A stretch of DNA of 64,000 nt from Pseudomonadota bacterium. Lineage in GTDB: Bacteria > Pseudomonadota > Gammaproteobacteria > Burkholderiales > Burkholderiaceae_F. Of this stretch, positions 24,902 through 64,000 are shown piece by piece. Both the position numbers and the translations under genes were made by a program. How positions within the stretch are numbered: the first letter of the stretch is position 1; each line of letters begins with the position of its first letter. The stretch spans positions 186,001 through 250,000 of the forward strand of contig JAKOQB010000143.1 of the NCBI GenBank assembly GCA_029778535.1, written 5' to 3'. Under the pieces are notes generated by a model, which was not told the DNA's origin, ran no database searches, and saw only the letters and a list, made by a program, of their open reading frames with translations.

Positions 24902-24971
24902 GTCGCACCGGCGAAGGCCGGTGCCCAATTTGCAGCGCTGAACATCGGGCACCGGCCTGCGCCGGGGCGAC
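24902..24971. repeat. Dispersed palindromic repeat, copy A1
   Basis: Two imperfectly complementary arms, GTCGCACCGGCGAAGGCCGG (from 24902) and CACCGGCCTGCGCCGGGGCGAC (to 24971), flank a short loop. It lies between aroC and the MFS gene. Copies at 38035 and 55450 share arms and spacing. Confidence 0.85.
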
Positions 24972-50363: not shown

Positions 50364-52388
50364 ATGTCTCGCCACGTCCGTCTGCTCGCCCCGCTCGACC
50401 TCGACTTCCTGCGGCTTCCCAACCGCATCGTCATGGGCGCGATGCACACGCGGCTGGAGACGCTGGATCGCCCGGTCGAACGCCTCGCTGCGTTCTACGC
50501 CGCGCGCGCCCGCGGCGAAACGGGCTTGCTGCTGACCGGCGGCTACTCGCCGAGTCCAGAGGGCCGAATCGAGCCCGACGGCCCGCTGCTCAACGACGAA
50601 TCGCAGCTCGACCTGCATCGCGCGGTGTGCGATGCGGTCCATCACGCGGGCGGGCGCATCGCGCTGCAGATCCTGCACACCGGGCGCTACGCCAAGCTGC
50701 CGGAGTGTGTCGGTCCTTCTGCGATCCGGGCGCGCATCAACCGCTACACGCCGCGCGCACTTTCAACTGAAGAGGTGTGGCGCACGATCGACGACTTCGC
50801 GCGGACCACGGCGCTCGCGCGCGCGGCGGGCTACGACGGCGTGGAGATCATGGCCTCCGAGGGCTACCTGATCAACGAGTTCGCCGCGCCGGCGACCAAT
50901 TTGCGCAGCGATGAGTTCGGCGGCTCGTTCGACAACCGCGCGCGCTTGGCGGTCGAGATCGTCAAGGCCGTGCGCAAGGCGGCGGGCGATGACTTCATGC
51001 TGATCTACCGCATCTCGTCGATCGACCTCGTCGATGGCGGCGTGCCGGCAGCAGAGACGGTCGAGCTTGCGCGGCGCGTGCAGCACGCCGGCGCAAACAT
51101 CCTGAACACCGGCATCGGCTGGCACGAATCTCCCGTGCCGACGATTGCGGCCAGCGTGCCGCGCGCGGCGTGGGCGTTTGCGATCCGGCGCGTTAAACAG
51201 GCGGTGTCGATCCCTGTGATCGCATCCAACCGGATCAACGACCCGGACGTGGCCGAGCGGCTGCTCGCCGACGACGTGGCCGATCTCGTGTCGATGGCGC
51301 GGCCGCTGCTCGCGGACCCCGACTTCGCGCGCAAGGTGCGCGAGGGTCGAGCGGACGAGATCAACACATGCATCGCCTGCAACCAGTCGTGCCTGGACGG
51401 CATCTTCGCCGAGCGCGCGGCGACATGCCTGGTCAATCCGCGCGCGGGGCGCGAGATCGAATTCAGCGATGCGCCGGCCGCACGGCGGAAGCGCATCGCG
51501 GTCGTCGGCGCCGGGCCGGCCGGCATGGCGTTCGCGATCAACGCGGCCGAGCGCGGGCATCAGGTTACGCTGTACGAGGCAGCGAGCGCGCTCGGCGGGC
51601 AGCTCAACATGGCGCGCATGGTGCCGGGCAAGTCGGAGTTCAACGAGATGCTGCGCTACTTCCGCGTGCGGCTGAAGCGGCTGGGCGTCGAGACGAAGCT
51701 CGGCGTGCGCGCCGACGCGGAGTCGCTGGCGCGCGGACCGTTCGATGCAATCGTGCTCGCGACCGGCGTGAAGCCGCGCGTGCCGCAGTTGCGCGGCATC
51801 GGACATCCCAAGGTGGTGTCGTACGTCGACGTGCTGAGCGGACGCAAGCAGATTGGCAGGCGCGTGGCGATCATCGGCGCCGGCGGCATCGGCTTCGACG
51901 TGGCCGAGTTCCTGCTCGGCGATGCGGACGAATCGCGCGTGCCCGACAAGTTCATGCACGCGTGGAACGTCGATCCAGCGGCCCGCACTGGCGGACTGCA
52001 TAGCGCGACGATCAAAGCAAAACGTTCGCCGCGACGCGCAGTGCACATGCTCCAGCGCAAGACCGACAAGCTCGGCGCGAACCTCGGCAAGACAACGGGC
52101 TGGATCCTGAAGGCGCGGCTGCAGGAAGCCGGCGTGAAGATGATCGCCGGCGCGAACTACCTCGCGATCGACGACGCCGGACTGCACTACGCGGTCGGCG
52201 GCGAGGAGAAAGTGCTCGCGGTCGATCACGTGGTGCTTTGCGCCGGCCAGGAGAGCGACCGGGACCTATTCGAAGCCCTCAGGTCGCGCGGCATCGACGC
52301 GCACCTGATCGGCGGCGCCGATGTCGCGGCCGAGCTCGATACCGCCAAGGCGATCGAGCAGGCCACGCGGCTGGCGGTCGAGATCTGA
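50364..52388 (+). CDS. 2,4-dienoyl-CoA reductase-type NADH:flavin oxidoreductase (FadH family)
   Basis: 674 residues with the FadH layout: FMN TIM-barrel (1-330, active-site SEGYLINEFAAPATN), a [4Fe-4S] cluster bound by C336, C339, C343 and C355, then FAD (VVGAGPAGMAFAINAAERGH) and NAD(P) (AIIGAGGIGFDVAEF) domains. Close relatives also include trimethylamine dehydrogenase-like enzymes; dienoyl-CoA reduction is the best guess. The 186 bp before it hold no recognisable gene. Convergent with the AgmX/TonB gene (15 bp). Confidence 0.88.
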   Translation: MSRHVRLLAPLDLDFLRLPNRIVMGAMHTRLETLDRPVERLAAFYAARARGETGLLLTGGYSPSPEGRIEPDGPLLNDESQLDLHRAVCDAVHHAGGRIALQILHTGRYAKLPECVGPSAIRARINRYTPRALSTEEVWRTIDDFARTTALARAAGYDGVEIMASEGYLINEFAAPATNLRSDEFGGSFDNRARLAVEIVKAVRKAAGDDFMLIYRISSIDLVDGGVPAAETVELARRVQHAGANILNTGIGWHESPVPTIAASVPRAAWAFAIRRVKQAVSIPVIASNRINDPDVAERLLADDVADLVSMARPLLADPDFARKVREGRADEINTCIACNQSCLDGIFAERAATCLVNPRAGREIEFSDAPAARRKRIAVVGAGPAGMAFAINAAERGHQVTLYEAASALGGQLNMARMVPGKSEFNEMLRYFRVRLKRLGVETKLGVRADAESLARGPFDAIVLATGVKPRVPQLRGIGHPKVVSYVDVLSGRKQIGRRVAIIGAGGIGFDVAEFLLGDADESRVPDKFMHAWNVDPAARTGGLHSATIKAKRSPRRAVHMLQRKTDKLGANLGKTTGWILKARLQEAGVKMIAGANYLAIDDAGLHYAVGGEEKVLAVDHVVLCAGQESDRDLFEALRSRGIDAHLIGGADVAAELDTAKAIEQATRLAVEI

Positions 52389-52403: not shown

Positions 52404-53483
52404 TCACGACGGCAGGAAATCCACCGGCCACGACACCACCATCACCTCGACATCCTTCGCGCCGAATTCGAACTGGCGAATGCGCGCGAGCAGCTTCTGC
52501 TCCAGCTCCTGCGCCTTCAGCTCGCTCGACAGGATGCGCAGGTTGGTGATGTTGCCCGACGGCGCGATCGTCAGCTCCAGCACGACCTTGCCCTGCAGCG
52601 TCGGGTCCTCGCGCAGCGCGCGGTTGTAGATCGCGTAGATCGCGCCCTTGTTGCGCTCGAAGACGAGCTTGATCTCCTCGATCGAGCGCGACGCCTTGCC
52701 GCTGCCGCTTCGCTGCAGCACGCCGCCCGCGCCCGTTCCGGTGCCGCGCCCGCCGCCGCCGCGGAAGCCTCCTCCGCCGCCGTAGCCGCCGCCTCCGCCG
52801 CCGCCCGCTACGCCTTCGACCAGCGTGGTGGCGCGACCCGCGAGCCCGCCGCCGCCGGTGTCGCGGCTGTAGGCGGCGGTGTTGATGCCGCCGCTGCCGT
52901 TGGTGGCGTTGGACGTGATCATCGCGCGCACGGGGATGCCGGGGTCCGTCCCCGCGCCGACGCCCGGCCCCTTGCCGGTGCCCACGCCGGGGCCCGGCTT
53001 GATGTCCGCCTTCAACTGCACCGCCGCCGGTGCGCCGCGCAGATCGGCGATGTCGTTCTTCATCGCGAGCAGGCCGACGCCGGACGCCTTGCGGCGCGCG
53101 TTGTCGAGCAGTTCGCCCGGCGGCTTGTTCGGCTCGGGCCGGCGCGCCTCGGGCACCGGCGCCTTCTTCGGATCGAGCTTGACGTCGTCGGCGCGCGGGG
53201 CGAGCTCCTTGCGATCCGGCTCGACCTTCGGCGCCGCCTTCACCGGCGCCGGGATCAGCGGCATCGGCTTGTTCTCGAGCAGCAGGCGGGCCATCGGTGC
53301 CGGCAGTTCCTCGACCTGGGTGCGGTCGATCTTCGGCACCGGCAGCCAGGGCAGCAGCAGGCCGATGATCGCGGTCGTCAACAGCACCCGCTGCTGGATG
53401 CGGCGGAAGCGACGCTCGTCGGCCTCGACCCCGATCCAGGGCAGCGCCGCCGGGCGGTGCATGGGCAAACGGGCGGCTGTCAT
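52404..53483 (-). CDS. AgmX/TonB-like periplasmic energy transducer
   Basis: 359 residues from the ATG at 53481-53483. Single N-terminal membrane helix (about 33-48), a Pro/Lys/Glu-rich stretch (VEPDRKELAPRADDVKLDP), a long glycine-rich region (about 205-265), and a C-terminal domain (RSIEEIKLVFERNKGAIYAIYNRALR, GKVVLELTIAPSGNI) with the AgmX/PglI-TonB C-terminal character. It is the last gene of the ExbB-ExbD-ExbD run and its start overlaps the ExbD1 stop. Probable role: carrying motor force to outer-membrane parts. Confidence 0.85.
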   Translation of the reverse strand: MTAARLPMHRPAALPWIGVEADERRFRRIQQRVLLTTAIIGLLLPWLPVPKIDRTQVEELPAPMARLLLENKPMPLIPAPVKAAPKVEPDRKELAPRADDVKLDPKKAPVPEARRPEPNKPPGELLDNARRKASGVGLLAMKNDIADLRGAPAAVQLKADIKPGPGVGTGKGPGVGAGTDPGIPVRAMITSNATNGSGGINTAAYSRDTGGGGLAGRATTLVEGVAGGGGGGGYGGGGGFRGGGGRGTGTGAGGVLQRSGSGKASRSIEEIKLVFERNKGAIYAIYNRALREDPTLQGKVVLELTIAPSGNITNLRILSSELKAQELEQKLLARIRQFEFGAKDVEVMVVSWPVDFLPS

Positions 53484-53977
53484 CACGTCTCCGTCTTCCT
53501 GCGCACCGCGAACGCGACGTCGCTGTAGTTGGCGCGCGCGCAGGTCACCATCACCTTGCGCAGCAACTGGTACGGGATGTCCTTGTCGCCCATGATCGTG
53601 ATCGCGTTCTTCTGCGCCGCGTTCTCGAGGCGAATCACCTGCTTGCCCGACTGGTAGTCGAGCTCCGCCTTCAGCGGTGCGATCAGGTCGTCCGGCGCCT
53701 TCATCACGTCGACCACCGAAGCGATCTTGCGCCCCTGAACGATGATGTCGCTGTTGTTCACGACGACCACCAGCGTGTCGCGCGGCGTCTTCTCGGCGCT
53801 CGACTCCGGCAGCTTGACCGCCTTGGAGCTGGGCAGGATCTCGACCTCCGCCGAATGCGACAGCAGGAAGAAGATCAGGATCGTGAAGATGTCGATCAGC
53901 GACACCAGATTCAGGTCGACCAGCGACTTGTTGCGCTCGCGGTGCGCGGCGCGCCTTTGCAGCGGGGTCAGGTTCAT
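53483..53977 (-). CDS. ExbD/TolR-like stator subunit (Asp-containing)
   Basis: 164 residues. Short basic N-terminus, one membrane helix (about 24-40, VSLIDIFTILIFFLL) with the expected proton-path aspartate D29, then a periplasmic ExbD domain (RDTLVVVVNNSDIIVQGRKI). Overlaps ExbD2 by 4 nt and the AgmX/TonB gene by 1 nt. Expected to form the H+-driven motor with the ExbB-like protein. Confidence 0.92.
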   Translation of the reverse strand: MNLTPLQRRAAHRERNKSLVDLNLVSLIDIFTILIFFLLSHSAEVEILPSSKAVKLPESSAEKTPRDTLVVVVNNSDIIVQGRKIASVVDVMKAPDDLIAPLKAELDYQSGKQVIRLENAAQKNAITIMGDKDIPYQLLRKVMVTCARANYSDVAFAVRRKTET

Positions 53978-54474
53978 GACTTCCTCTGGCCCGTTCCGAC
54001 CGGCGCGTCGCCAATCGAGATTTCAGGGAAGAAATCGGTGTGCACGATCTGCGTTCCCTGCACCGTGCGCCCCGCGCGCACCGCGTCCATCACCTGCACC
54101 AGTACGTCGTACGGCGTATTGGGCTGCGCGAGGATCGTGGCGCTGGACTTGTCGGGAAAACGCAGCTTCAGCTGCTGGATCAGCGCCGACAGCGCCTTCA
54201 CGTCGTAGCCGGAGGCGCTGTTCGGGATGCGCTGGATCAGGCCGCCGATCTTGTCGCCGACCTCGAGCGCGTCGGGGCGGATCACCACTTCGAGCTGCAG
54301 GTCCCCTTTGAGCTGCTCGAAGTTCGATGACTGCGCCGGGAGCTTGAGGTCCATGATCGCCAGCCGCGTGAACACCGCCGTCGACAGCAGGAACGGCACC
54401 AGCACCACGATCAGGTTCAGGAACGCGGTGATGTCCAGTTCCGCCGGCCGGCGGTGCAGGCGTCGGACGCGCAT
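53974..54474 (-). CDS. ExbD/TolR-like stator subunit lacking the canonical Asp
   Basis: 166 residues with the same layout. The membrane helix reads DITAFLNLIVVLVPFLLSTAVF: at the place where ExbD/TolR have the proton-carrying Asp (xxxIDxxLVLL) there is Asn20, and the only nearby acid is D14 at the cytosolic edge. The periplasmic domain (LQLEVVIRPDALEVG, TILAQPNTPYDVLVQVMDA) is ExbD-like. It may be a structural, non-conducting subunit. Starts 3 nt after the ExbB-like stop. Confidence 0.88.
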   Translation of the reverse strand: MRVRRLHRRPAELDITAFLNLIVVLVPFLLSTAVFTRLAIMDLKLPAQSSNFEQLKGDLQLEVVIRPDALEVGDKIGGLIQRIPNSASGYDVKALSALIQQLKLRFPDKSSATILAQPNTPYDVLVQVMDAVRAGRTVQGTQIVHTDFFPEISIGDAPVGTGQRKS

Positions 54475-54476
54475 GG

Positions 54477-55130
54477 TCAGCGGGCCGCGGCCGCTTCGGG
54501 ACCGCCGCGATGAACCAGGTTCAGGAAACTGATCTTGGCGGCTTCCAGGCTGTCGACGATCTCGGTCGCGCGCGCCTGCAGGAACGCGTGAATCAGCAGG
54601 AACGGGATCGCGACCATCAGCGCGAACGCGGTGTTGTTCATCGCGATCGAGATGCTGGCGCTCAGCAGCTCGGCCTTCTCCGCCGGGTTGACCTGCGCCA
54701 CCGCGGTGAACGCCTTGATCAGGCCGATGATCGTGCCCAGCAGCCCCACCAGCGTGATCACGTTGGCGAAGGTGGCCAGATAGTGCGTGCGCTTCTCCAG
54801 GCGCGGCACGATCTCCATCATGCCCTCTTCCATCGCGGCGTCGATGTCCTCGCGCCGGCGGGCGCTGCCCATGCGCGCAAGCCCGTTGTTGACGATCAGG
54901 CCGATCGCGGTGTCGGACTTCGACGCCACGCCGTGCACTTCCTTGTACTGGCCGGCCTTAAGCAGCGGCAGGATGTCGCGCCACGCCTTGCTGTTCTCGC
55001 GCCGCGCGCGCTGCAGGAAGATGAAGCGCTCGATCGCGACCGACAGGCCGAGCGCCATGATCAGCAGGCTGGGATAGATGAACAGCCCGCAGTCCTGGAA
55101 GAACTTCACCACTGTGCCAAACGTCAACAT
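54477..55130 (-). CDS. MotA/TolQ/ExbB-like proton channel protein
   Basis: 217 residues, three membrane segments (about 13-35, 118-145, 158-185) with large cytoplasmic loop. Signatures THYLATFANVITLVGLLGTIIGLIKAF and AMNNTAFALMVAIPFLLIHAFL match the MotA_ExbB domain, including the conserved Thr/Pro features of the channel. It is the pentamer-forming partner for the two ExbD proteins. Confidence 0.95.
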   Translation of the reverse strand: MLTFGTVVKFFQDCGLFIYPSLLIMALGLSVAIERFIFLQRARRENSKAWRDILPLLKAGQYKEVHGVASKSDTAIGLIVNNGLARMGSARRREDIDAAMEEGMMEIVPRLEKRTHYLATFANVITLVGLLGTIIGLIKAFTAVAQVNPAEKAELLSASISIAMNNTAFALMVAIPFLLIHAFLQARATEIVDSLEAAKISFLNLVHRGGPEAAAAR

Positions 55131-55158
55131 CGGGGACCTCCTTGCTTCGAGTGCTGGT

Positions 55159-55542
55159 TCAGAAAACTTCCTTCTTGCCGTCGGCCGACTTTGCCGCCGG
55201 TTCCACGCGCGTCAGCGCGTCGTACTGCAGTTGCCGGCGAAACACGTCGCGGTCGATCGGCGCCAGCGCCTCGTCGAGCACGCTGGTCACCGGCCGGCCG
55301 GCGAGATCGCCGGGCAGCGGTTTCTTCCACGGAACGATGTAAAGGACCTTCGGCAGCTCGCGGTTGCCGATGATCTGCGCGCGATCGATCGCGGCGCGGT
55401 CCTGGGCGAAGGCGGGTCCGGCCGAAAGCGCAGCAACGATGAGCAGCACGTCGCCCCGGCGCAGGCCGGGGCCCAAGTTACTTCGAAGAAAATTGGGCTC
55501 CGGCCTGCGCCGGGGCGACACGTTCTCCGTCCGTTTGCTCAT
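55159..55542 (-). CDS. Small secreted protein of the ExbB locus with a repeat inside its signal peptide
   Basis: 127 residues from the ATG at 55540-55542. The n-region is unusually long and basic because residues 8-31 are encoded by a dispersed repeat ([21 protein letters not shown]); only then comes the hydrophobic core [16 protein letters not shown] and the mature part ([30 protein letters not shown]). The mature part is not a family I know. It overlaps the TPR lipoprotein stop (ATGA) and precedes ExbB by 28 bp. Confidence 0.75.
55450..55519. repeat. Dispersed palindromic repeat, copy A3 (inside a signal-peptide coding region)
   Basis: Arms GTCGCCCCGGCGCAGGCCGG (from 55450) and GGCCTGCGCCGGGGCGAC (to 55519), same arms and centre size as copies at 24902 and 38035. 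Keeps its host frame open. Confidence 0.9.
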
Positions 55543-56216
55543 TGCTGCTCCTTCCTGCTCAGCAGCGTCTGCTGCGGCGGCTTGCGGTTGCGCAAGTCGG
55601 CGATCCATTTCTTCACCTTGCCGTCTTCGTCCGGCGCGAGCGCCAGATAGCGGTCGTACGCGGCGAGCGCGCGCGCGCCGTCCCACAGGTACAGGTCGTA
55701 CAGGATGCCGAGATTCAGGTGCGCGGCGGCGTAGTCGGGGTCGAGCGCGACCGCGTGCTCGTAGGCATCGCGCGCCTTCTGGAACTCGCCCTGCTGGCGA
55801 TACGTGATGCCAAGCTGATTGAGATAAACCGGCTGCTTCGGATTCGCCTTCACCGCGAGTTCGAGTTCGGCGACCGCTGCCGCCAGCTTGCCGGACTGCC
55901 GCAGCAGCAGACCGAGATTCGCGTGCGGGCCGCCGAGCTCGGGATTCGACTTCGTCAGCGCGCGGAAGCCGCGCTCGGCTTCCTCGGCCCGTCCCGCCTG
56001 CATCGCGCGGCGCGCCTCGTCGAACGCGCGCTGGACCGCGGGGCTGATCGTAGGCTCCGCTTCGACCTTCAGCGCCGGCGCCGGTGCCGCGGCCGAACTC
56101 GCGGGCGCCGGCGCAAGGGCCGCCTTCGTCACCGTCGGCTCGCTGCGCGTCGCGCATCCGGCCGCGAGGGCGCACAGTGCAAGCAGCGCAATCTTCAACG
56201 CGCTATCGAATCGCAT
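55539..56216 (-). CDS. TPR-repeat lipoprotein
   Basis: 225 residues from the ATG at 56214-56216 (a GTG 15 nt earlier is the alternative). Lipobox LAAGC with Cys21; Ala/Pro spacer; then three to four TPR units between about 70 and 205 ([62 protein letters not shown]). Likely a periplasm-facing adaptor. It overlaps the 935-residue protein gene and the next gene. Confidence 0.9.
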
Positions 56217-59010
56217 CGATCGTCCCTTCACTGCGCTCGGTCTTCGCGTAGCGCACGGGCCGCAATTTCCCGAGCGCGGCGTAGCTCGCCTGCACCCACT
56301 TGTCGTAGATGCCCTTCGCCGACCGGCGCGCGTTCGCCTCGTGCAGCTCGATCGCCTTTTCCTCGAACGGATAGGCCTGCTCCTCGAGCAGCACGTTGTA
56401 CTGCTCCAGTTCCACCTTCTTCAGCCCCTTGGGCCGCTGCGAGCCGAGCATCGCCTTGCCGAATTCGCCGTACAGCTCCGCGGTCTGGAACGTCGCGGCG
56501 GTCGACACTTCCGCCACGCCGTAGTCCGCCGCCAGTGCGTACGCCTTCAGCACCTCCTCCATCCGCGCCTTCTTCAGCTTCAGATTCTTCTGCAACGGCT
56601 CGACCAGCGCGACGCTGCGATACGAATCGCGCAGCGGCTCCGCCAGCGCCAGCGCCGCCTGCGCGCCCAGATAGCGGGTGCGGTCGGTGCGTGCGCTGCC
56701 GCCCGTCTGGTCGGCGTGCAGCACTTCCTTCATGCCGGCCAGGTGGCGCGCCGCATTGCCTTCCTTGCGTGCCAGCAGCGCCAGCCGGTAGCGCGCCTCG
56801 AGGTTGGCCTCGAACGGCTCGCGATACGCCTTCGCATACCGGTCATAGGCCTTGACGGCGGCCGCGGTCGCGCCGCCCTTCTCGTACAACTCGGCCGACT
56901 GCCACAGTGCGGCGCGCGCCAATTGCGGGTCCTTCTGCGTGGTGGAGATGCGGTCGAACTCCGCCGCGGCCTGCGCCCACTGGCCCTTCTCCGTGTACGC
57001 GACCGCGAGCTTGGCGGCGGCGTCCTGCGCCAGCGGATGATTCGGGTAGCTGCGGCGAAAGTCCTCCAGCGTGCGCGCCGCGCGGTCCCAGTCCTTGAGC
57101 GTCAGCAGCGCCGCGGCCGCGTCGTACTGCGCGGTCGCACGCACCGTCGACAGCGGCGCCGCGGTGGCCACGCGCTCGAAATGCGCGACCGCCTCGCCCA
57201 GCTTGCCCGCCGAGCGCGCCTGTTCGCCCTGCTTGTAGATCGACGCCGCCAGGCGCTCGGTCAGGTCCTTGCGGCTGGCGTCCTTCTCGTCGGTCAGCGC
57301 GAGCACCGCGCCGTACATCTTCTCCGCCTGGTCGAACGCGTTGCGGTCGAAAGCCGCATGCGCGAGCACCAGCGACGCGACGCGGCGCTGTGCCGCGCCG
57401 GCGGGCGGCGTCAGCGCCAGCACCTGTTGCGCGACGGCCTCGGCGCGCTCGACATCGCGCAGCGCGTACAGCTTCTCCGCCGCGTTGGTCAGTACGGCGC
57501 CGGCGCGCGGATCCTTCGGGAACGTGCGCGCGAACTTCAGCTCGCTCTCGATCGCGGCTTGCCTGAGCTTGCCGCTGTCCGCCGCGCCGCGCTTCTCCTG
57601 TTCCGCGTACGCCAGCAGCGCGGCGTAGCCGGCGTCGGCGCTCTTGGCGTGCGGCGCATAGGCGTACGCGGACTTCTCGTACTCGACCGCGGCCTCGCCG
57701 AACCGCTTGCTCTCGAACAGAAGCTCGGCCAGCAGGAAGTTCGACTGCGCCGCCTGCGGATCCTGCGGGAACGACGTCAGGTATTCGCGATACCAGCGCG
57801 CCGCCTCCTGGTAATCCTCGGGCTTCTTCGACTTCTGCGCGGCGGCGTGGTGATGCTGCGCCAGCTCCGCCAGATGCATCTTGACCAGCGGCTGCGCGCG
57901 CTCCCAGCCGGCCGGGTTGGTCTTGCGGAACTCGCTCTTGACGCCGTAGCGCTCGACGTATTCCTTCTTGCCGTCGAGCGCCAGCGTGGCGAATCCGTTG
58001 CTCTGGTAGATATCGATCACGCGCGCCTGCAACACCGGCGCCTGCGGGTGCAGCGGATTGCGCCGGGCAAACGCGGCGAAGGTGTCGGCGGCATCCTTGA
58101 TCCGCTCCTGCTTCAGGTAAAGCTCGCCGAGCTCCTGATAGACGCGGAACTCGTAGCCGCGCCGCAGCGGCGAATCGACGTAGGCCGCGATCGATTCCGC
58201 GCCCTGCAGGTTCTGCAGCGACAGGCTCACTACGCGGAAGGTGTCCTCGACCAGCTCGAAGTCCGCCCGCGTCAGCCCCGGCAGCTTCGCCAGTTCGACA
58301 TCGCTGTCCCGTCCCGCCAGCTTCAGGTCGAGCACGCCGAAGAACGACTTCAGCCCGTCTTCCAGCCGACCCTGCTTGTACAGCGACCAGCCGTGCATGT
58401 AGAGCGACCGCTCGTGATACGGCGTCTGCGTCTCGCTCCCGAGCACGGTCGTGAACGCCTTCTCGGCGCCGACGTAGTCGCGCGTGGTGAACAGCAGTTC
58501 GCCGCGGCGAAACTGCGCCTCGTCGCGGTACTTCGTCTGCGGGTACTTCTGCACCAGGGAGTCGAGCGTCTTCAGTGCAGTCTCGAGCTGTCCGCCGAGC
58601 TCGTACGCGCGCGCCAGCTGGTACAGCACGCGGTCGTTGCTGGGGTCGTTCGGATAGGTCTTCAGAAAATCCTGGTAGCGCGCAATCGCGCCGCGGTAAT
58701 CGGGGGCGCCGCCCGGCCCGCTCGCGCTGCGCGCGTCGGCCTGGTCCATCTCGAGGTCGCCGAGCCGACGCAGCGCTTCGAGCCGCTGCGAATCGCGCGG
58801 CGCCGCCTTCAGGAAGTCCTTGTACGCGGCGATCGCCTTCTCTTCGTTCGAGTCCACACCCTGGTCGGCGTCGATCGCGACCCGCCGCTTCTCCAGGCTC
58901 TTCAGCGTCGGCGCGTTGTCGGCCGCGTTCTTCTTCGTGCTCGCGCACGCGGCGAGCCCGGCCGCGACGAGCAGGACGATGCCGATGCGGGCGCTATTGC
59001 CGAACCGCAT
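56203..59010 (-). CDS. Large TPR-like repeat lipoprotein, 935 residues
   Basis: Start at the ATG 59008-59010 with AAGGA 8 nt ahead; an ATG 9 nt earlier is possible. Lipobox GLAAC with Cys22, then helical repeats throughout, e.g. [55 protein letters not shown] and [25 protein letters not shown], a YbgF/GltE-like arrangement typical of periplasmic scaffold proteins. Overlaps the upstream gene by 17 nt and the TPR lipoprotein by 14 nt. No enzymatic motif seen. Confidence 0.88.
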
Positions 59011-60919
59011 TGCCCGCATCCTTGGCCATGTCCTTGGCCATGTCCTTGGCCACATAGGCCCGGTCGTAGATCTGCGCCACCGCGAAGCGCGCCTGGGTCG
59101 CGTATTCGGCCACGCGCTCCTTCTGGTGCAGCAGTTCGGCGGCCGCCAGCTCCTGCACGTGCTTCTGCTGCTCGGCCGCGAGCTGCTCGACGCGCGGAAT
59201 CTGTGCCTGCACCTGCTTGGACAGAAGCGCGATGCGTTCGGCAAGCGCATCGAAGCGCGCCGGCTCGTCGCGCTGCGCCTGCGCGAGCGCGGCGTCGAGC
59301 GCGCGCGCCTGCGCCAGTTCGCCCTCGAGCGCCTTCATGTTCTTCTTCGCTTCCCACAGCCGCGGATGGAACTGCATCGTCAGCCGCCAGCTCAGTGCGC
59401 CGGCCACGCGGCGATAGCGGTCGCGCGCGGCGGCGACGTCGGGATCGTTGCCGTCGCGCTCGATGATCTCGCGCACGCGCGCCAGGCGTTCGACCAGGTC
59501 GCGCTCCTTCGCGTCGGCCAGCGCATGCACGTCGGAGTCGCGCTCGACGCGCGCGAGTTCCGCCGCCAGATCGCTGCAGCGGCGCTCGAGCGCCGCGATG
59601 TTCAGTGAGCGTTCCTTCTCCCGTACCTGCGGCAGCCGCGCGTCGTACGCCTGGCGGCGGTTGGCGAGCATGTCGCCGAACACGCCGAGCTTGTCCTGCC
59701 ATTCGCGCAGGTTGCGTTCGAGGAAGCGCAGGTCGCGGTAGTTCTTGAACGCCTCCTGGAATTCGTGCTGCGCCAGGATCTGCGCCAGATGTCCGGCGTG
59801 CGGCATCTGCGGCAACTGCTGGATGTTCCAGAACCAGCCCATTTCGTCGCCGGGATTGAGCCGCAGCAGGTCCTCGACCAGCTTGCCGGCGCGGATCGCG
59901 GCGACCGATTCGTCGAGGTCGGTGCTCTCGCGTTCGAACACCGTCACCGCTTCCTCGTAGAGCTTCAGCGACTGCCCGTACGCGCCGAGCTCCGCCAGCG
60001 CGTACGGCACCGCGAGCTTGGCCTCCAGAACGGCGCTGTCGCCGCTGTCGCGCTGGGCGAGTTCCAACCACGGCACCAGCGCCACCTTCGGCTGGTTCAT
60101 CGCCGCCGCGGCCCAGCCGAAGCCGAGAAGCGCCTTGTTTGCCTGCAGTCCCGCCAGCCGCACCCGCTCCAGATACGTGCGCGCCTGCTGCGGCGTGTTC
60201 TCCTGCAGGGCCGCGTAGCCGAGCGCGACGTTCGCCTTGTCGCGCAGGCTCTTCATTTCCTCGTTCGTCGCCGGCGTGCGGCCGATCTCGTCGAGGAGCC
60301 GCGCGCCGCGCGCCGTCTCGCCGCTCTTGATCAGCGCCACGCCGAGGTTGTAGCGCGCGTACTGGCCGGTCAGTCCCTTGCCGGGTTGCACCGTGGCGAG
60401 CACCTGCGCGGCGCCGGCATAGTCCTGGCGCGCCATCAGCAGCTGCGCGCGCAGCAGCACGCGATCCTCCTCGAGGTCGCCCGGCAGCGGCTTGTCGATG
60501 CGGCCGATCGCATCCTCCGCCTCGGCGAGGTAGCCGCGCTGGTAGCGGATCTTGGCCAGATAGAACCACGCGCGGTCGCGCACCGCCGGCAGCGCGCCCT
60601 TTTCGATCAGCTGCGCGAAGATCTGCCCCGCTTCGCGGTGCAGCCCATAGGACAGGAACAGGCCGCCGCGCAGCACTTCGGCTTCGTCCTCGTGCTGCGG
60701 CAGCCGCGTGAAGTGCTGCGACACCATCAGGTTCGTCACCGAGGTGAAGTAGCGGTCCTGGAAGAAATAGAACAGGCTGTCGCCGTAGTGCGGCGCCTTG
60801 ATCACGTGGGGCTGCGCCTCGGCCGCCGACGCTGTGCCGGCGGCAACCGTCAGCGCAAACGCCACGGCAACGGTCAGCCGGCGCAGCGCTCTAATCGGAT
60901 TGAAAGGAACGCGCGTCAC
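58994..60919 (-). CDS. Secreted repeat/coiled-coil protein, 641 residues
   Basis: GTG start at 60917-60919. Signal peptide (LTVAVAFALTVAAGTASA). The first 350 residues are TPR-like helical repeats (VLRGGLFLSYGLHREAGQIFAQLIEKG, ARYNLGVALIKSGETARGA); the last 300 are coiled-coil rich (REKERSLNIAALERRCSDL; FDALAERIALLSKQVQAQI). The end holds tandem MAKD repeats. Not a family I can name; resembles gliding-locus TPR proteins in layout. Stop overlaps the 935-residue gene start. Confidence 0.8.
   Translation of the reverse strand: MTRVPFNPIRALRRLTVAVAFALTVAAGTASAAEAQPHVIKAPHYGDSLFYFFQDRYFTSVTNLMVSQHFTRLPQHEDEAEVLRGGLFLSYGLHREAGQIFAQLIEKGALPAVRDRAWFYLAKIRYQRGYLAEAEDAIGRIDKPLPGDLEEDRVLLRAQLLMARQDYAGAAQVLATVQPGKGLTGQYARYNLGVALIKSGETARGARLLDEIGRTPATNEEMKSLRDKANVALGYAALQENTPQQARTYLERVRLAGLQANKALLGFGWAAAAMNQPKVALVPWLELAQRDSGDSAVLEAKLAVPYALAELGAYGQSLKLYEEAVTVFERESTDLDESVAAIRAGKLVEDLLRLNPGDEMGWFWNIQQLPQMPHAGHLAQILAQHEFQEAFKNYRDLRFLERNLREWQDKLGVFGDMLANRRQAYDARLPQVREKERSLNIAALERRCSDLAAELARVERDSDVHALADAKERDLVERLARVREIIERDGNDPDVAAARDRYRRVAGALSWRLTMQFHPRLWEAKKNMKALEGELAQARALDAALAQAQRDEPARFDALAERIALLSKQVQAQIPRVEQLAAEQQKHVQELAAAELLHQKERVAEYATQARFAVAQIYDRAYVAKDMAKDMAKDAGNAVRQ
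59020..59055. repeat. 12-bp tandem repeat (three units) at the 3' end of the 641-residue gene
   Basis: The unit CCTTGGCCATGT is repeated twice exactly at 59020-59043, with a third unit CCTTGGCCACAT at 59044-59055. It encodes successive MAKD units on the minus strand and lies next to the downstream start. Confidence 0.8.
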
Positions 60920-60922
60920 CGA

Positions 60923-61468
60923 TCACTGCCACACTTTGACTTCGAACTCCGGCTGCAGCTTGCCCTGGGAGTCCTTGATCTGCAGCTCGACGTACTTGGG
61001 CTCGGTGCCCTTGTCGATCGTCAGCGTCGCGCCGCGCTTGTAGTCGCGGTCGTGCGGGCCCTTGCCGGTGAAGAACGCCGTGAGCTCGTGCTTGCCGGCC
61101 TTCAGATTCCCCAGGTACAGCCGCTGCACGCCGCCGCGATGCAGCGCCTGCACCTCGGCCGGCGTGTACAGGTAGTTGCTGACGATCTTGTCGTCGAGCT
61201 TGACCTGCACCGAGTCGAGCGAGAACAGCTTGCCCACGTCCATCGACAGGAACACGGCGACCTGCGTGTTGGCCGGGAACAGCAGTTCCTCCTCCAGCAC
61301 CAGCAGGTCGCGGTTCAGGCGGATCACGTCGCCCTTGGCGTCCTGGATGCGGTTGTCGAGGCTGGCCGACTCGGGGCTGCCCGCCGTCACCGAGGCCACA
61401 TCGGCGGCGAGCGCCGAAGCCGCGATCGCGATCGACGCGGCCAGGATCAGGAGGATTCGTTTCAACAT
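60923..61468 (-). CDS. Secreted uncharacterised protein, 181 residues
   Basis: Signal peptide (1-21, LLILAASIAIAASALA) and a beta-rich mature part (TQVAVFLSMDVGKLFSLDSVQVKLDD, GKHELTAFFTGKGPHDRDY, TEPKYVELQIKD) with an Ig-like look. I do not recognise it. Sits between the DUF3570 barrel and the 641-residue protein (gaps of 9 and 3 nt), so it is cotranscribed with the locus. Confidence 0.8.
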   Translation of the reverse strand: MLKRILLILAASIAIAASALAADVASVTAGSPESASLDNRIQDAKGDVIRLNRDLLVLEEELLFPANTQVAVFLSMDVGKLFSLDSVQVKLDDKIVSNYLYTPAEVQALHRGGVQRLYLGNLKAGKHELTAFFTGKGPHDRDYKRGATLTIDKGTEPKYVELQIKDSQGKLQPEFEVKVWQ

Positions 61469-61477
61469 GGCTTGCTC

Positions 61478-62608
61478 TCAGAAGTTGGCCGTGACGAACA
61501 CTTCCAGCACGTTGGCGTTGAACGAATACGGGCTGCCGGTGCGGAGGTCGGTGAAGTCGCTGTACTTGAAGTGCAGCAGCTCGTACGCGGTGTTGAACTT
61601 GATCTCGTAGCGGCCCGGCTGTTTCTTCGCGGTGTACGACGCCTTGAAGCCGACGCCGATGCTGGTGAAGGTGCCGAGCTGGCGGTTGCGCGTGATGTAC
61701 GTCGTCTCGGTCGTGAAGTTGTCGCTGTAAAAAAGCGCCCTGCGCTGCGAGTTGAAGCGCAGGTAGCCGTCGGCCAGCAGGTCCGCGCCGAGATAGCGGC
61801 TGTAGCCCAGCTCCGCGGTGTGCGCGCGGACGTTCCACGTGTCCCAGAAGTAGCGGTACTCCGCGCGCATCGCGTCGCGCTTGCCCAGATCGCCGACGAC
61901 GCGGAACTGCACCGCGCGGCTGGTGCGCGTGGTCGGCAGCCGCTCGGGCACCGCGGCACCGAACACGCGCGCGGCGCGGTACGGGCTGCCGAGGTAGCCG
62001 TCGTCGGCGACGATCTCCGTGTTCACGCTCGCCAGCCAGCGCGGCGTCAGGATCTGCGTGGCCCCGAGCCGGTAGCGCCAGTGTGTCGCGCGCTCGTTGA
62101 AGGTCGGGTCGTTGTGCCGCTTGACCGTGTCGGCCGCGCGGGTGAAGCCGAGCGCGACGGTCGCCATGCCGCCGAACACGTCCTGCGCGACGTCGAAGTT
62201 GACCGTGTTGGCCGTGTAGTCGGGCTCGCGGCTGGTCGCCAGCGACAGGCTCATCAATGAATCGCGGTACGCGTAGTCCGCGCCGACGCTGTATTCGTTG
62301 CGCGTCTCCTTGAACGGGCTCGCGGTGGTGACCACGTCGATCGAGGCGTTGCTGACGATGTCGGCGTAGTACGACCCGGTCAGCGACACCTTGTCGGCGA
62401 GGCTCTTGCGCACCAGCAGCGCCGGACCCCACGCGCGCACGCCGCCGCCGTCGTACACGTGCAGCAGCGCGTCGGCGCGATCCTCCGGCAACTGCGCGGC
62501 GCCTGCGCCGTGCGTGGCCAGCGCGCCGCCCAACAGGCCGGCCAGCAGATCGAGCAGCCGTTGTCTGAATGCGCGGACGAACCTCAGCCAGCGGCTAATT
62601 GCAGCCAC
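61478..62608 (-). CDS. DUF3570 outer-membrane beta-barrel protein
   Basis: 376 residues from a GTG at 62606-62608; signal peptide-like start. Conserved text ALLHVYDGGGVRAWGPALLVRKSL and SYYADIVSNASIDVVTTASP then FKETRNEYSVGADY is the DUF3570 hallmark. Alternating aromatic strands and a C-terminal VTANF (last-residue Phe) are those of outer-membrane barrels assembled by BAM. Its start overlaps the DUF4266 gene by 14 nt. Confidence 0.92.
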   Translation of the reverse strand: MAAISRWLRFVRAFRQRLLDLLAGLLGGALATHGAGAAQLPEDRADALLHVYDGGGVRAWGPALLVRKSLADKVSLTGSYYADIVSNASIDVVTTASPFKETRNEYSVGADYAYRDSLMSLSLATSREPDYTANTVNFDVAQDVFGGMATVALGFTRAADTVKRHNDPTFNERATHWRYRLGATQILTPRWLASVNTEIVADDGYLGSPYRAARVFGAAVPERLPTTRTSRAVQFRVVGDLGKRDAMRAEYRYFWDTWNVRAHTAELGYSRYLGADLLADGYLRFNSQRRALFYSDNFTTETTYITRNRQLGTFTSIGVGFKASYTAKKQPGRYEIKFNTAYELLHFKYSDFTDLRTGSPYSFNANVLEVFVTANF

Positions 62609-62813
62609 AGCCGCCTCCCTGCACGCCGGTGGCGCCGCGCGCGCCCTCGCGCACCTCGTACACGTGCGCGCGGTGCTTGTCCGCCAGCGGATCGCGCGCG
62701 GCCTTCATGATCGGATCGGCCAGGCGCTCGCGCTCGTACGGTTTCACCCACGGCTCGAGCGCGCAGCCCGCGAGCAGCGCGGCCAGAGCCGCGGCAACAA
62801 TCAGTGTCTTCAT
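62595..62813 (-). CDS. DUF4266 lipoprotein with C-terminal GGGCGCN
   Basis: 72 residues: lipobox LLAGC with Cys17, a conserved helix (ERERLADPIMKAARDPLADKHRAHVYEVRE), and a Gly/Cys C-terminus ending GGGCGCN. DUF4266 proteins regularly accompany DUF3570 barrels and share this ending. The role is unknown; a redox, metal or modified-Cys function for the two C-terminal Cys is inference. It overlaps both TlpA (4 nt) and DUF3570 (14 nt). Confidence 0.92.
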   Translation of the reverse strand: MKTLIVAAALAALLAGCALEPWVKPYERERLADPIMKAARDPLADKHRAHVYEVREGARGATGVQGGGCGCN

Positions 62814-63295
62814 TCCTTCAGCAGCTCCCGGATCTGCTTCTCATAGGTGTTCTCGTAGCCGTCCTTGTAGCCGAGGTGGATGAAGCGCACGCGGCCGTCG
62901 CGATCGATCAGCACCGTCGACGGCATCGTCGCCAGGTCGTACAGGTGGCTCACCTTCTTGTCGGTGTCGAGCAGCACCGGGAACTTCAGCCCGAGCTTGG
63001 TCGACAGCCCCGCGGCGTTGCGGGCGTCGTCGTCGATGTTCACGCCGAGCAGGGTGAAGCCCGCCGCGCGGTACTTCTCGTACAGGCGGTTCAGGTGCGG
63101 CATTTCCTGCCGGCACGGCCCGCACCACGTGGCCCAGAAGTTCACCAGCACCACGCGGCCGCGCTGCTCCTGCAGGCGCAGGTTCGGTCCGTCGAGCGAG
63201 CGCAGGGTGAAATCGGGCGCGGCGCGGTCGGTCGAAACCGCCGCGGCGACGCTGCAGAGCGTGCTCAGCGCCAGGGTCAGCAGGATCCGGATCAT
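62810..63295 (-). CDS. TlpA-family thioredoxin-like protein
   Basis: 161 residues: signal peptide (1-19), then a TlpA/ResA domain with WCGPC (C58, C61), the cis-Pro region TMPSTVLIDRDG and an insertion typical of TlpA. Expected to be a periplasmic disulfide reductase or oxidoreductase. Its coupling to DUF4266 (ATGA) suggests it acts on the Cys pair of that protein. Confidence 0.94.
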   Translation of the reverse strand: MIRILLTLALSTLCSVAAAVSTDRAAPDFTLRSLDGPNLRLQEQRGRVVLVNFWATWCGPCRQEMPHLNRLYEKYRAAGFTLLGVNIDDDARNAAGLSTKLGLKFPVLLDTDKKVSHLYDLATMPSTVLIDRDGRVRFIHLGYKDGYENTYEKQIRELLKE

Positions 63296-63310
63296 CGTCG
63301 CTGTCCGTCG

Positions 63311-63949
63311 TCAGAAGAAGAAAGTCACCCCGGCGGTCAGCTCGAGGTTCTGCGTATTGCGCCGCTTGCCGAGGATGTCGAGCGAGAACACGTGGTCGCG
63401 CATGTCGACCTGCAGCGCGGCCCAGTCGCGCAGAAACATGCGCCAGCCGAGGCCGAAGTTGAACGTCTGCCGCCGCTGCTCGAGGAAGCGCGTGCTGCCG
63501 ATGCCGCCGATCAGATAAAGCGCGGTGGCCTTCGCGATGTTGCGGCCGATGAAGACCTCGCCCGGCAGCACGTTGTAGCCGGCCGAGACGTTGTAGTAGG
63601 ACAGCGTCTGCTTCTCGCTCGGGAAGATGCCGCCGGGCAGGATCAGGCGGAAATCCTGGTCGGTGACGCGCGTCGCCGCATACACAGCCTCGACGAACAC
63701 GTCCTCGGTGATGTGGTAGCCGAGCCGCACGCCGGCGACGAGGCTGGAGCCGAAGTTCTGCGTGCCGTACGTGCCGGTGAACGCGCCCAGTTCGATGTCG
63801 TTCGACGGAATGCGCGGCTTGCGGATGTCGCGCCGGTCGACCTGAGGCTCGATCACCTGCTGCGCCGTGGATTGCTGCGCGCGTGCCAGCGGCGTCACTG
63901 CGCCCAGCGCCAGCGCCAGCAGTGCGATCGCGATCGTTCTTGTCTGCAT
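63311..63949 (-). CDS. Outer-membrane beta-barrel protein (OmpA-like barrel size)
   Basis: 212 residues from the ATG at 63947-63949 (an upstream start would add six). Signal peptide (1-25, LARAQ), then about eight amphipathic strands (IELGAFTGTYGTQNFGSSLVAGV, VFVEAVYAATRVTDQD, QTLSYYNVSAGYNVLPGE) and a C-terminal GVTFFF ending with Phe. Paralogue of the partial gene to its right. Function unknown. Confidence 0.85.
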   Translation of the reverse strand: MQTRTIAIALLALALGAVTPLARAQQSTAQQVIEPQVDRRDIRKPRIPSNDIELGAFTGTYGTQNFGSSLVAGVRLGYHITEDVFVEAVYAATRVTDQDFRLILPGGIFPSEKQTLSYYNVSAGYNVLPGEVFIGRNIAKATALYLIGGIGSTRFLEQRRQTFNFGLGWRMFLRDWAALQVDMRDHVFSLDILGKRRNTQNLELTAGVTFFF

Positions 63950-63966
63950 GTGTCGCTCGTCACCCA

Positions 63967-64000
63967 TCAGAAGAAGAATGAAAGTCCGGCCGTGATCGCG
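63967..64000 (-). CDS. C-terminal end of a second outer-membrane beta-barrel protein (5' part outside window)
   Basis: The minus strand reads AITAGLSFFF before a TGA at 63967-63969, the same aromatic C-terminal strand as the neighbouring barrel (LTAGVTFFF), including the final Phe. Only 11 codons are inside the window. Confidence 0.7.
   Translation of the reverse strand, partial: AITAGLSFFF

Follow-up and report, generated by a model that had tools for sequence, protein, structure and literature searches.

An Agl-Glt-like ExbB-ExbD core joined to an ApbE-DUF3570-heme module in a conserved operon of beta- and gammaproteobacteria

The stretch of DNA analyzed here, from a bacterium of the Burkholderiaceae_F and termed the window (64,000 nucleotides; C24:186001-250000), carries near its end an operon that can be separated into two parts. 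One is a nine-gene core, comprising an unnamed periplasmic protein (P181), two large TPR proteins (TPR641 and TPR987), a TPR lipoprotein (TPR225), a small exported protein (P128), an ExbB-like channel, two ExbD-like proteins and an AgmX/TonB-like transducer. The other is a redox module, comprising ApbE, an HzsA-like cytochrome, a DUF3570 barrel, a DUF4266 lipoprotein with a CXC motif, a TlpA-like protein and two small barrels. The gene set is not a product of chance, for all 17 genes recur in order across genera. We propose that the two parts form one trans-envelope system, a machine driven by the proton motive force that would assemble, gate or move an outer-membrane electron-transfer conduit, and we judge this proposal to stand at about an even chance of being right.

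Thirteen of the 17 genes lie complete in the window on the minus strand (52404-63967), and the remaining four (SH3-barrel, CX4CH lipoprotein, HzsA-like multiheme lipoprotein and ApbE) continue for approximately 5.4 kb past its end, as read in the overlapping stretch L007 (C24:238001-258000). From 5' to 3', the first half of the operon has the order ApbE, HzsA-like, CX4CH lipoprotein, SH3-barrel, OMP_myx, TlpA, DUF4266 and DUF3570, and the second half P181, TPR641, TPR987, TPR225, P128, ExbB, ExbD1, ExbD2 and AgmX. The intergenic gaps are mostly -16 to +28 bp, and the operon ends at 52404 since the gene at 50364-52388, on the plus strand, is convergent with it. A prior reading of the window from its letters and open reading frames (the sequence-only reading) had described fourteen close-packed minus-strand genes; the strand and the gaps hold, but the fourteenth gene only starts in the last 34 bases and the operon is longer. 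Its members are:

52404..53486, minus strand: AgmX/TonB-like transducer of 360 amino acids, with an N-terminal transmembrane segment, Pro/Lys-rich and Gly-rich linkers and a TonB-like C-terminal domain
53483..53977, minus strand: ExbD2/TolR-like protein with Asp29 in the transmembrane segment; below the cut-off of the TolR model
53974..54474, minus strand: ExbD1, with Asn20 at the expected position of the proton-binding Asp; PF02472 at 47 bits, over the cut-off
54477..55130, minus strand: channel of the ExbB/TolQ/MotA family; PF01618 at 92.8 bits
55159..55542, minus strand: P128, a small exported protein with no Pfam or NCBIfam match, conserved in its place in the order
55539..56216, minus strand: TPR225, a GltE-like TPR lipoprotein of 225 amino acids with the lipobox LAAGC; GltE is its best NCBIfam match
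56203..59010, minus strand: TPR987, a large TPR lipoprotein in a GltD-like position; TPR_6, TPR_16, YfiO and other matches
58994..60919, minus strand: TPR641, a TPR/coiled-coil periplasmic protein of 641 amino acids in a GltC-like position; weak TPR_19 match
60923..61468, minus strand: P181, an unnamed periplasmic family with a signal peptide, one helix and a beta-sandwich
61478..62608, minus strand: DUF3570, a predicted barrel; PF12094 at 115 bits
62595..62813, minus strand: DUF4266, a small lipoprotein with the C-terminal end GGGCGCN; PF14086 at 83.7 bits
62810..63295, minus strand: TlpA/ResA-like thiol-disulfide protein with WCGPC; Redoxin and AhpC-TSA matches
63311..63967, minus strand: outer-membrane barrel of the OMP_myx family; TIGR04565 at 141.8 bits, over the cut-off of 60
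63967..64000, minus strand: start of the SH3-domain barrel gene, which continues to approximately 64734 (L007:11967-12734)
L007:12719-13342, beyond the window end, same operon: CX4CH lipoprotein
L007:13339-16320, beyond the window end, same operon: HzsA-like multiheme lipoprotein
L007:16346-17356, beyond the window end, same operon: ApbE

Profile matches bear out the families named in the sequence-only reading, namely ExbB, two ExbD, the AgmX/PglI domain, TPR, TlpA, DUF4266, DUF3570 and the OMP_myx barrel.

When contigs of GTDB genomes were scanned with P181, at least 467 encoding stretches were recovered, the best 80 loci of which were kept as a named set. Nearly all sufficiently long loci of this set keep the 17 genes and their order; the whole set is present in Rubrivivax, Rhizobacter, Piscinibacter, Ideonella, Methylibium, Aquabacterium, Rhodoferax, Leptothrix and Sapientia, and in a metagenome-assembled genome of the Acidithiobacillales (L097), and at two loci of the named set, L113 and L129, neither DUF4266 nor DUF3570 was seen. 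Relatives with enough sequence, including other genera of the family, have all the genes in unchanged order at approximately 55-85% identity. TPR641 was present in 6 of the 60 relatives searched, all of the same family, its orthologues being 59-66% identical and at the same locus. P181, the best marker of the core, occurs at 11 places in 10 of 299 Pseudomonadota genomes, and the core block is present at every one of these places; at L165 and L145 a small gene in the place of P128 was missed by the profile. It is also found in 84 of 369 genomes of the class and in 39/116 and 18/119 genomes of two orders, these samples sharing some of their genomes. The notion of an energized trans-envelope machine, as put forward in the sequence-only reading, thus holds as anatomy: ExbB-ExbD-ExbD-AgmX-TPR is a fixed recurring block, and the ExbB-ExbD homologues found through P181 usually keep the TPR genes, with the barrels variable.

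Linkage between the core and the module was read at 75 P181 loci, the module being scored as the HzsA-like, SH3-barrel, OMP, TlpA and DUF3570 genes within approximately 13 kb upstream. At least four of these five genes are present at 34 loci, fragments (ApbE by itself or just the two small barrels) at 10, and none at 31; these fractions are descriptive, as relatedness among the loci, truncated contigs and unseen modules elsewhere in a genome all affect them. The clustering expected of a single system is conserved in many beta- and gammaproteobacterial genomes, with the module in a part of them only, and the barrels, which had been taken for a part of the machine, are not fixed in it but belong to a module linked to just under half of the sampled cores. 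By chance, with DUF4266 in approximately 7% of genomes and 13 kb amounting to about 0.3% of a genome, linkage would be expected in about 0.02%. In nine loci ApbE is the gene directly 5' of P181, in the same orientation, and at L170, L176, L186, L209, L242 and L243 the module is inverted yet still adjoins the core.

DUF4266 itself occurs in 21 of the 299 Pseudomonadota genomes in two kinds of loci: a compact TlpA-DUF4266-DUF3570-ApbE cassette without ExbBD, of the sort described by Meheust et al. 2021 (PMC8238504), and the window type, in which the set is linked to the core. In this phylum sample the sets of the core type number six and all belong to core-bearing genomes, five of them lying beside the core and one approximately 100 kb off; in G244 the core block has ApbE directly upstream and the remaining module lies about 100 kb away. 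The source genome holds both kinds, namely the window locus and a cassette (L136; C239:1-6126) with a canonical SGAS motif and no ExbBD. Against the DUF3570 family profile, the compact kind scores approximately 35-101 bits and the complete core kind at least 278. Likewise, one branch with a Shimodaira-Hasegawa-like approximate likelihood ratio support of 99 separates 41 core-linked ApbE proteins from 14 cassette ApbE proteins, in a tree flagged for one very long row (L079) and for the meeting of long branches. In a tree of P181 and TPR987 the redox-linked cores are scattered, with 13 changes versus 26 by shuffling, and the stand-alone cores are mostly in several clades; this spread led us to reject the idea that the type of core strictly predicts its cargo. 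We favor a single system because the 17 genes follow one another almost without gaps, in an order preserved in other genera and in almost every complete locus of the named set, including L097; because 34 of 75 core loci are joined to the module with a linkage surviving inversions; and because the core-type sets of the phylum sample are all in core-bearing genomes and the core-linked ApbE is separate from that of the cassettes.

The motor part of the core has a distinctive pair of ExbD proteins. The Asp in the transmembrane segment of ExbD2 (D29) is invariant in 68/68 aligned sequences, and at the matching proton-site position ExbD1 has Asn (N20) in 69/69; these alignments are mostly betaproteobacterial, and the gammaproteobacterial sequences printed in them agree. 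In Myxococcus, AglQ and AglS are both described with Asp at this site (PMC9389320), and the aglQ D28N mutation abolishes proton conductance and function (PMC3858216). We therefore have a two-ExbD motor with a natural Asn where the equivalent mutation stops the Myxococcus motor, and we predict from the alignments that ExbD1 and ExbD2 would be an obligate pair with a single active proton site. The closest solved chains to ExbB are TolQ and ExbB. The C-terminal domain of the transducer is recognized by the AgmX/PglI model NF033768 (63.6 bits, cut-off 40) and by the TonB C-terminal model TIGR01352, over its cut-off; its family members match NF033768 in 25/25 cases and the GltG model in 24/25. A search of the transducer against PDB sequences gave Gly-rich low-complexity matches only.

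Among the scaffold proteins, the GltE model matches 22/22 family members of TPR225, the TPR matches of which are generic, and neither of the large TPR proteins matched a GltC or GltD model. The start of TPR987 is most likely near 59010-59019, at the lipoprotein signal, rather than further upstream, judging from the lipobox GLAAC that sits after it; this start gives an overlap with TPR641 of approximately 16-26 bp, and the upstream one a gap of -86. A short tandem repeat at this junction (~58994-59090) encodes MAKDMAKDMAKD at the end of TPR641, and the same repeat, read in a different frame 5' of TPR987, makes the latter appear longer than it is. P181 matched no family in profile searches; it has a structure model with a predicted local distance difference test (pLDDT) score of 81.6, and the comparison with PDB gave no match at E <= 0.001 and nothing convincing by sequence or fold. 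P128 has no Pfam or NCBIfam family and is constantly placed between the TPR lipoprotein and ExbB in relatives. The P128 gene also harbors one of three palindromic repeat pairs that resemble repetitive extragenic palindromes (CGCCCCGGCGCAGGCCGG arms about 30 bp apart; 24904-24969, 38037-38101 and 55452-55517), the third copy being translated in frame in the signal-peptide region, where relatives are variable; CGCCCCGGCGCAGGCCGG has seven matches versus 1.4 expected.

In its parts list and domain models, though not by direct comparison with Myxococcus sequences, this core appears to match the Agl-Glt core complex (aglR, aglQ, aglS, gltC, gltD, gltE, gltG), which the main text of Luciano et al. 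(PMC3169522) reports from gamma-, beta- and deltaproteobacteria, with its function outside Myxococcus unknown. Both have one ExbB/MotA-like protein (AglR) with two ExbD-like proteins (AglQ/AglS), which are adjacent here and in a fixed arrangement in relatives, and a TonB-like AgmX/GltG protein with the AgmX C-terminal domain; TPR225 may correspond to GltE, and the two large TPR proteins to GltC and GltD. Unlike that complex as described, the present core has constant P181 and P128 genes and Asn in place of one of the two Asp residues of the ExbD pair, and is joined here and in many genomes to the ApbE/DUF3570/heme module. The gliding machinery proper of Myxococcus was rejected as an identification, with TPR225 at 54 bits against GltE (cut-off 225) and the transducer at 40 against GltG (650) and 20.6 against GltJ (450). 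The likeness to Agl/Glt noted by the sequence-only reading stands for the parts list, but not for the gliding equivalogs. Of the combination that it did not know as a named system, half is known already through the Agl-Glt core complex; DUF3570, DUF4266, TlpA and the barrels make up a module together with the ApbE and heme genes beyond the window.

The DUF3570 protein is predicted to be a 16-stranded outer-membrane barrel without a plug domain (pLDDT 87.8, predicted template modeling score 0.80), the nearest solved folds by Foldseek being the PelB, AlgE, FadL and OmpG barrels, with modest TM-scores for all; its C-terminal residue is Phe or Tyr in 73/74 sequences. It carries two tandem ApbE-like motifs, D83-IVSNAS (to S89) and D91-VVTTAS (to S97), in and beside the loop that joins strands 3 and 4 (residues 87-100), of which residues 92-97 have pLDDT <50. 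Outer-membrane barrels of this type usually have both termini in the periplasm, and in the model, given such an orientation, the motif loop would lie on the outer side. The motif recognized by ApbE is D-x-x-[S/T]-G-A-[S/T], and a Gly-to-Ala change in one studied target retains approximately 50% flavinylation (PMC12052999). In both motifs the D, S/T, A and S are invariant over 48 sequences and the Gly position alone varies, being mostly Asn and then Thr at the two sites in betaproteobacteria, and mostly Ser and then variable in gammaproteobacteria. The canonical [S/T]GA[S/T] is absent from the window protein (DIVSNAS, DVVTTAS), and SGAS is present at the first site in L097, L132 and L133. Flavinylation of DUF3570 is plausible because all positions other than Gly are invariant and the Gly-to-Ala target is still half-flavinylated, and the ApbE motif may extend to D-x-x-[ST]-x-A-S. 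Three divergent DUF3570 proteins (L198, L217, L247) have lost the motif, and two of these loci, L198 and L247, are without ApbE in the stretch examined. The RGAT near the C-terminus of DUF4266 was rejected as an alternative ApbE substrate, as no member has the S/T of the motif and the type I sequences differ there; no further conserved [ST]GA[ST] substrate was found among the operon proteins. DUF3570 thus gains a predicted fold along with flavinylation-like sites placed at one loop.

The remaining module proteins also carry conserved motifs. Nearly all copies of the HzsA-like protein contain 2-3 CXXCH, the neighboring lipoprotein has CX4CH in 67/67, and both have lipoboxes in most loci; heme would probably be attached to both. 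The C-terminal CGC of DUF4266 is present in 78/78, TlpA orthologues mostly have WCGPC or WCAPC, and the OMP_myx barrel ends in Phe in 69/71. The HzsA-like protein shares with HzsA the middle domain with CXXCH (HZS_alpha, 68.6 bits) and weakly resembles Kuenenia HzsA in the surroundings of the two heme sites, which does not imply a hydrazine enzyme; hydrazine synthase was rejected, with 53.9 bits against 800 for the HzsA equivalog, only the middle domain plus weak C-terminal similarity, and no match to HzsB or HzsC in the operon. One locus places a core beside genes resembling a known electron-transfer conduit: in L164 (G232:C1:2101500-2121499) the SH3-barrel and OMP genes lie upstream of the core, followed by genes for an MtrC/OmcA-like protein of 797 amino acids (10 CXXCH), an MtrA-like protein of 332 amino acids (10 CXXCH) and an MtrB/PioB barrel of 704 amino acids (521 bits), and an HzsA-like fragment lies 3' of AgmX. 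At L225, a related locus, both small barrels are present without Mtr-like genes. The core with its small barrels beside the Mtr-like genes in L164, and the lipoboxes on both heme proteins, count in favor of a conduit. With the Mtr porin-cytochrome conduit the window locus shares an outer-membrane barrel and heme lipoproteins; unlike it, it lacks MtrA/B/C, has DUF3570 as its barrel, and has few predicted hemes (2-3 CXXCH and one CX4CH).

The module has a precedent in the DsbD-type flavinylation clusters with ApbE, DUF3570, DUF4266 and a thioredoxin-like protein in the main text of Meheust et al. 2021 (PMC8238504). These genes, with the C-terminal CXC of DUF4266, are together here too; unlike those clusters, the present one has no DsbD, has SNAS/TTAS instead of [ST]GA[ST], and is joined to an ExbBD motor. 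The main text of that study never mentions ExbB or ExbD, and the main text of Luciano et al. mentions neither 'ApbE' nor 'thioredoxin'. In the main texts of the open literature searched, AglRQS and ApbE appear together in no paper, and DUF3570 or DUF4266 only in Meheust et al.

Several facts weigh against a motor serving a redox conduit. The canonical Gly is missing from both motifs of the window DUF3570, the flavinylation of which is therefore a prediction; the Mtr association is a single locus, a lead and not proof; the cluster has no DsbD or known quinol-to-cytochrome link; co-localization is an association and no demonstration of a motor acting on a conduit; and the 31 of 75 cores with no redox gene within 13 kb must act otherwise or serve other cargo. 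Such stand-alone cores, together with cassettes that exist without the core, even in the source genome, are also consistent with two independent systems in one operon, a core for envelope maintenance and a redox module that merely neighbors it. We consider this improbable, given that ApbE and DUF3570 from core loci form a subfamily of their own, that the linkage spans distant families and survives inversions, and that core-type module versions in the phylum sample are restricted to core-bearing genomes.

The same core could be a reduced Agl-Glt machine for surface transport or gliding, moving an outer-membrane complex or polymer, with the redox genes merely maturing or anchoring the cargo. Its parts list and its matches to the AgmX, GltG and GltE models agree with this, as does the modularity of the Myxococcus Agl motors, which move Glt or Nfs cargo (PMC3858216); however, Luciano et al. 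argue in their main text that the core by itself does not power gliding (PMC3169522), the GltE, GltG and GltJ equivalog cut-offs are missed, and ApbE and several heme proteins are left unexplained, and we regard this account as improbable. Reductive metal acquisition, in which the module would act at the surface to reduce or release iron or copper, the ExbBD-TonB-like part energizing its Ton-like uptake via the barrels, draws on the TonB-like C-terminal domain of AgmX, the suitability of the CXC lipoprotein and TlpA for metal or thiol handling, and the ferrous-iron transporter in 25 DUF3570 clusters in the main text of Meheust et al. (PMC8238504). It is nevertheless unlikely: the conserved operon has no metal transporter gene, the DUF3570 model is without a plug, and, as the sequence-only reading had it, no TonB-dependent receptor family is found in any cluster protein. 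ExbB/TolQ, ExbD/TolR and the TonB-like C-terminal domain are shared with Ton and Tol-Pal, but the two dissimilar ExbD proteins, the missed equivalog cut-offs and the lack of a receptor, TolB or Pal in the operon are not. Both were rejected as identifications, with ExbB at 34 bits against a cut-off of 206 for the ExbB equivalog and 57.5 against 221 for TolQ, ExbD2 at 28.7 against 127 for TolR, the sole TolB match being at 21.6 against 343 and falling on the HzsA-like protein, and nothing of the Pal family.

If the motor does serve a redox conduit, proton flow through ExbB-ExbD2, as suggested by their families and the Asp, would drive AgmX, with the ExbB/ExbD1/ExbD2 motor in the inner membrane pulling on or turning the AgmX/TonB-like arm. 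This arm would reach the TPR scaffold and outer-membrane lipoproteins (TPR641, TPR987, TPR225, P181 and P128, placed by their predicted signals), and the scaffold in turn may act on the DUF3570/OMP/SH3-barrel set. ApbE, in view of its linkage and the motif, would place flavin mononucleotide, probably two groups, on DUF3570; TlpA and DUF4266 may supply or relay thiol electrons; and the heme lipoproteins may carry electrons to or from the surface, for which the strongest outside hint comes from the Mtr-linked locus. In its manner of working the system would resemble a force-transducing motor of the TonB/Agl type with a TPR scaffold across the periplasm. The conduit as a whole would pass electrons between the periplasm and the cell surface for metal, mineral or polymer redox chemistry.

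The neighborhoods of other loci offer further observations. Gammaproteobacterial modules often come with a set of three CXXCH genes, a PSD2/DUF1585-like one of approximately 410-450 amino acids, a LamG one with CXXCH or a cytochrome c domain of about 850, and one of about 550, with ApbE nearby; in L132, L135, L145 and L113 this set lies beside the HzsA-like gene and ApbE. It is possible that these are extra surface cytochromes of the same system. Some stand-alone cores adjoin housekeeping genes, such as pnp (L192) and pgi (L167). Two cores without the redox module, L165 and L184, have VWA/AAA/FHA-domain genes directly upstream, possibly a second type of cargo or control module.

The Agl-Glt core has been known since 2011 in many bacteria not known to glide, with its function there left open. 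One tentative generalization, possible though not probable in our view, is that motor-driven outer-membrane redox conduits with an Asp/Asn ExbD pair, a bis-flavinylated barrel and heme lipoproteins, rather than motility, are a main role of this core in gamma- and betaproteobacteria. The core-module pairing recurs in many members of both groups, and this recurrent link to ApbE, DUF3570 and heme proteins furnishes a testable hypothesis, namely that the force of a proton motor may serve outer-membrane electron transfer.

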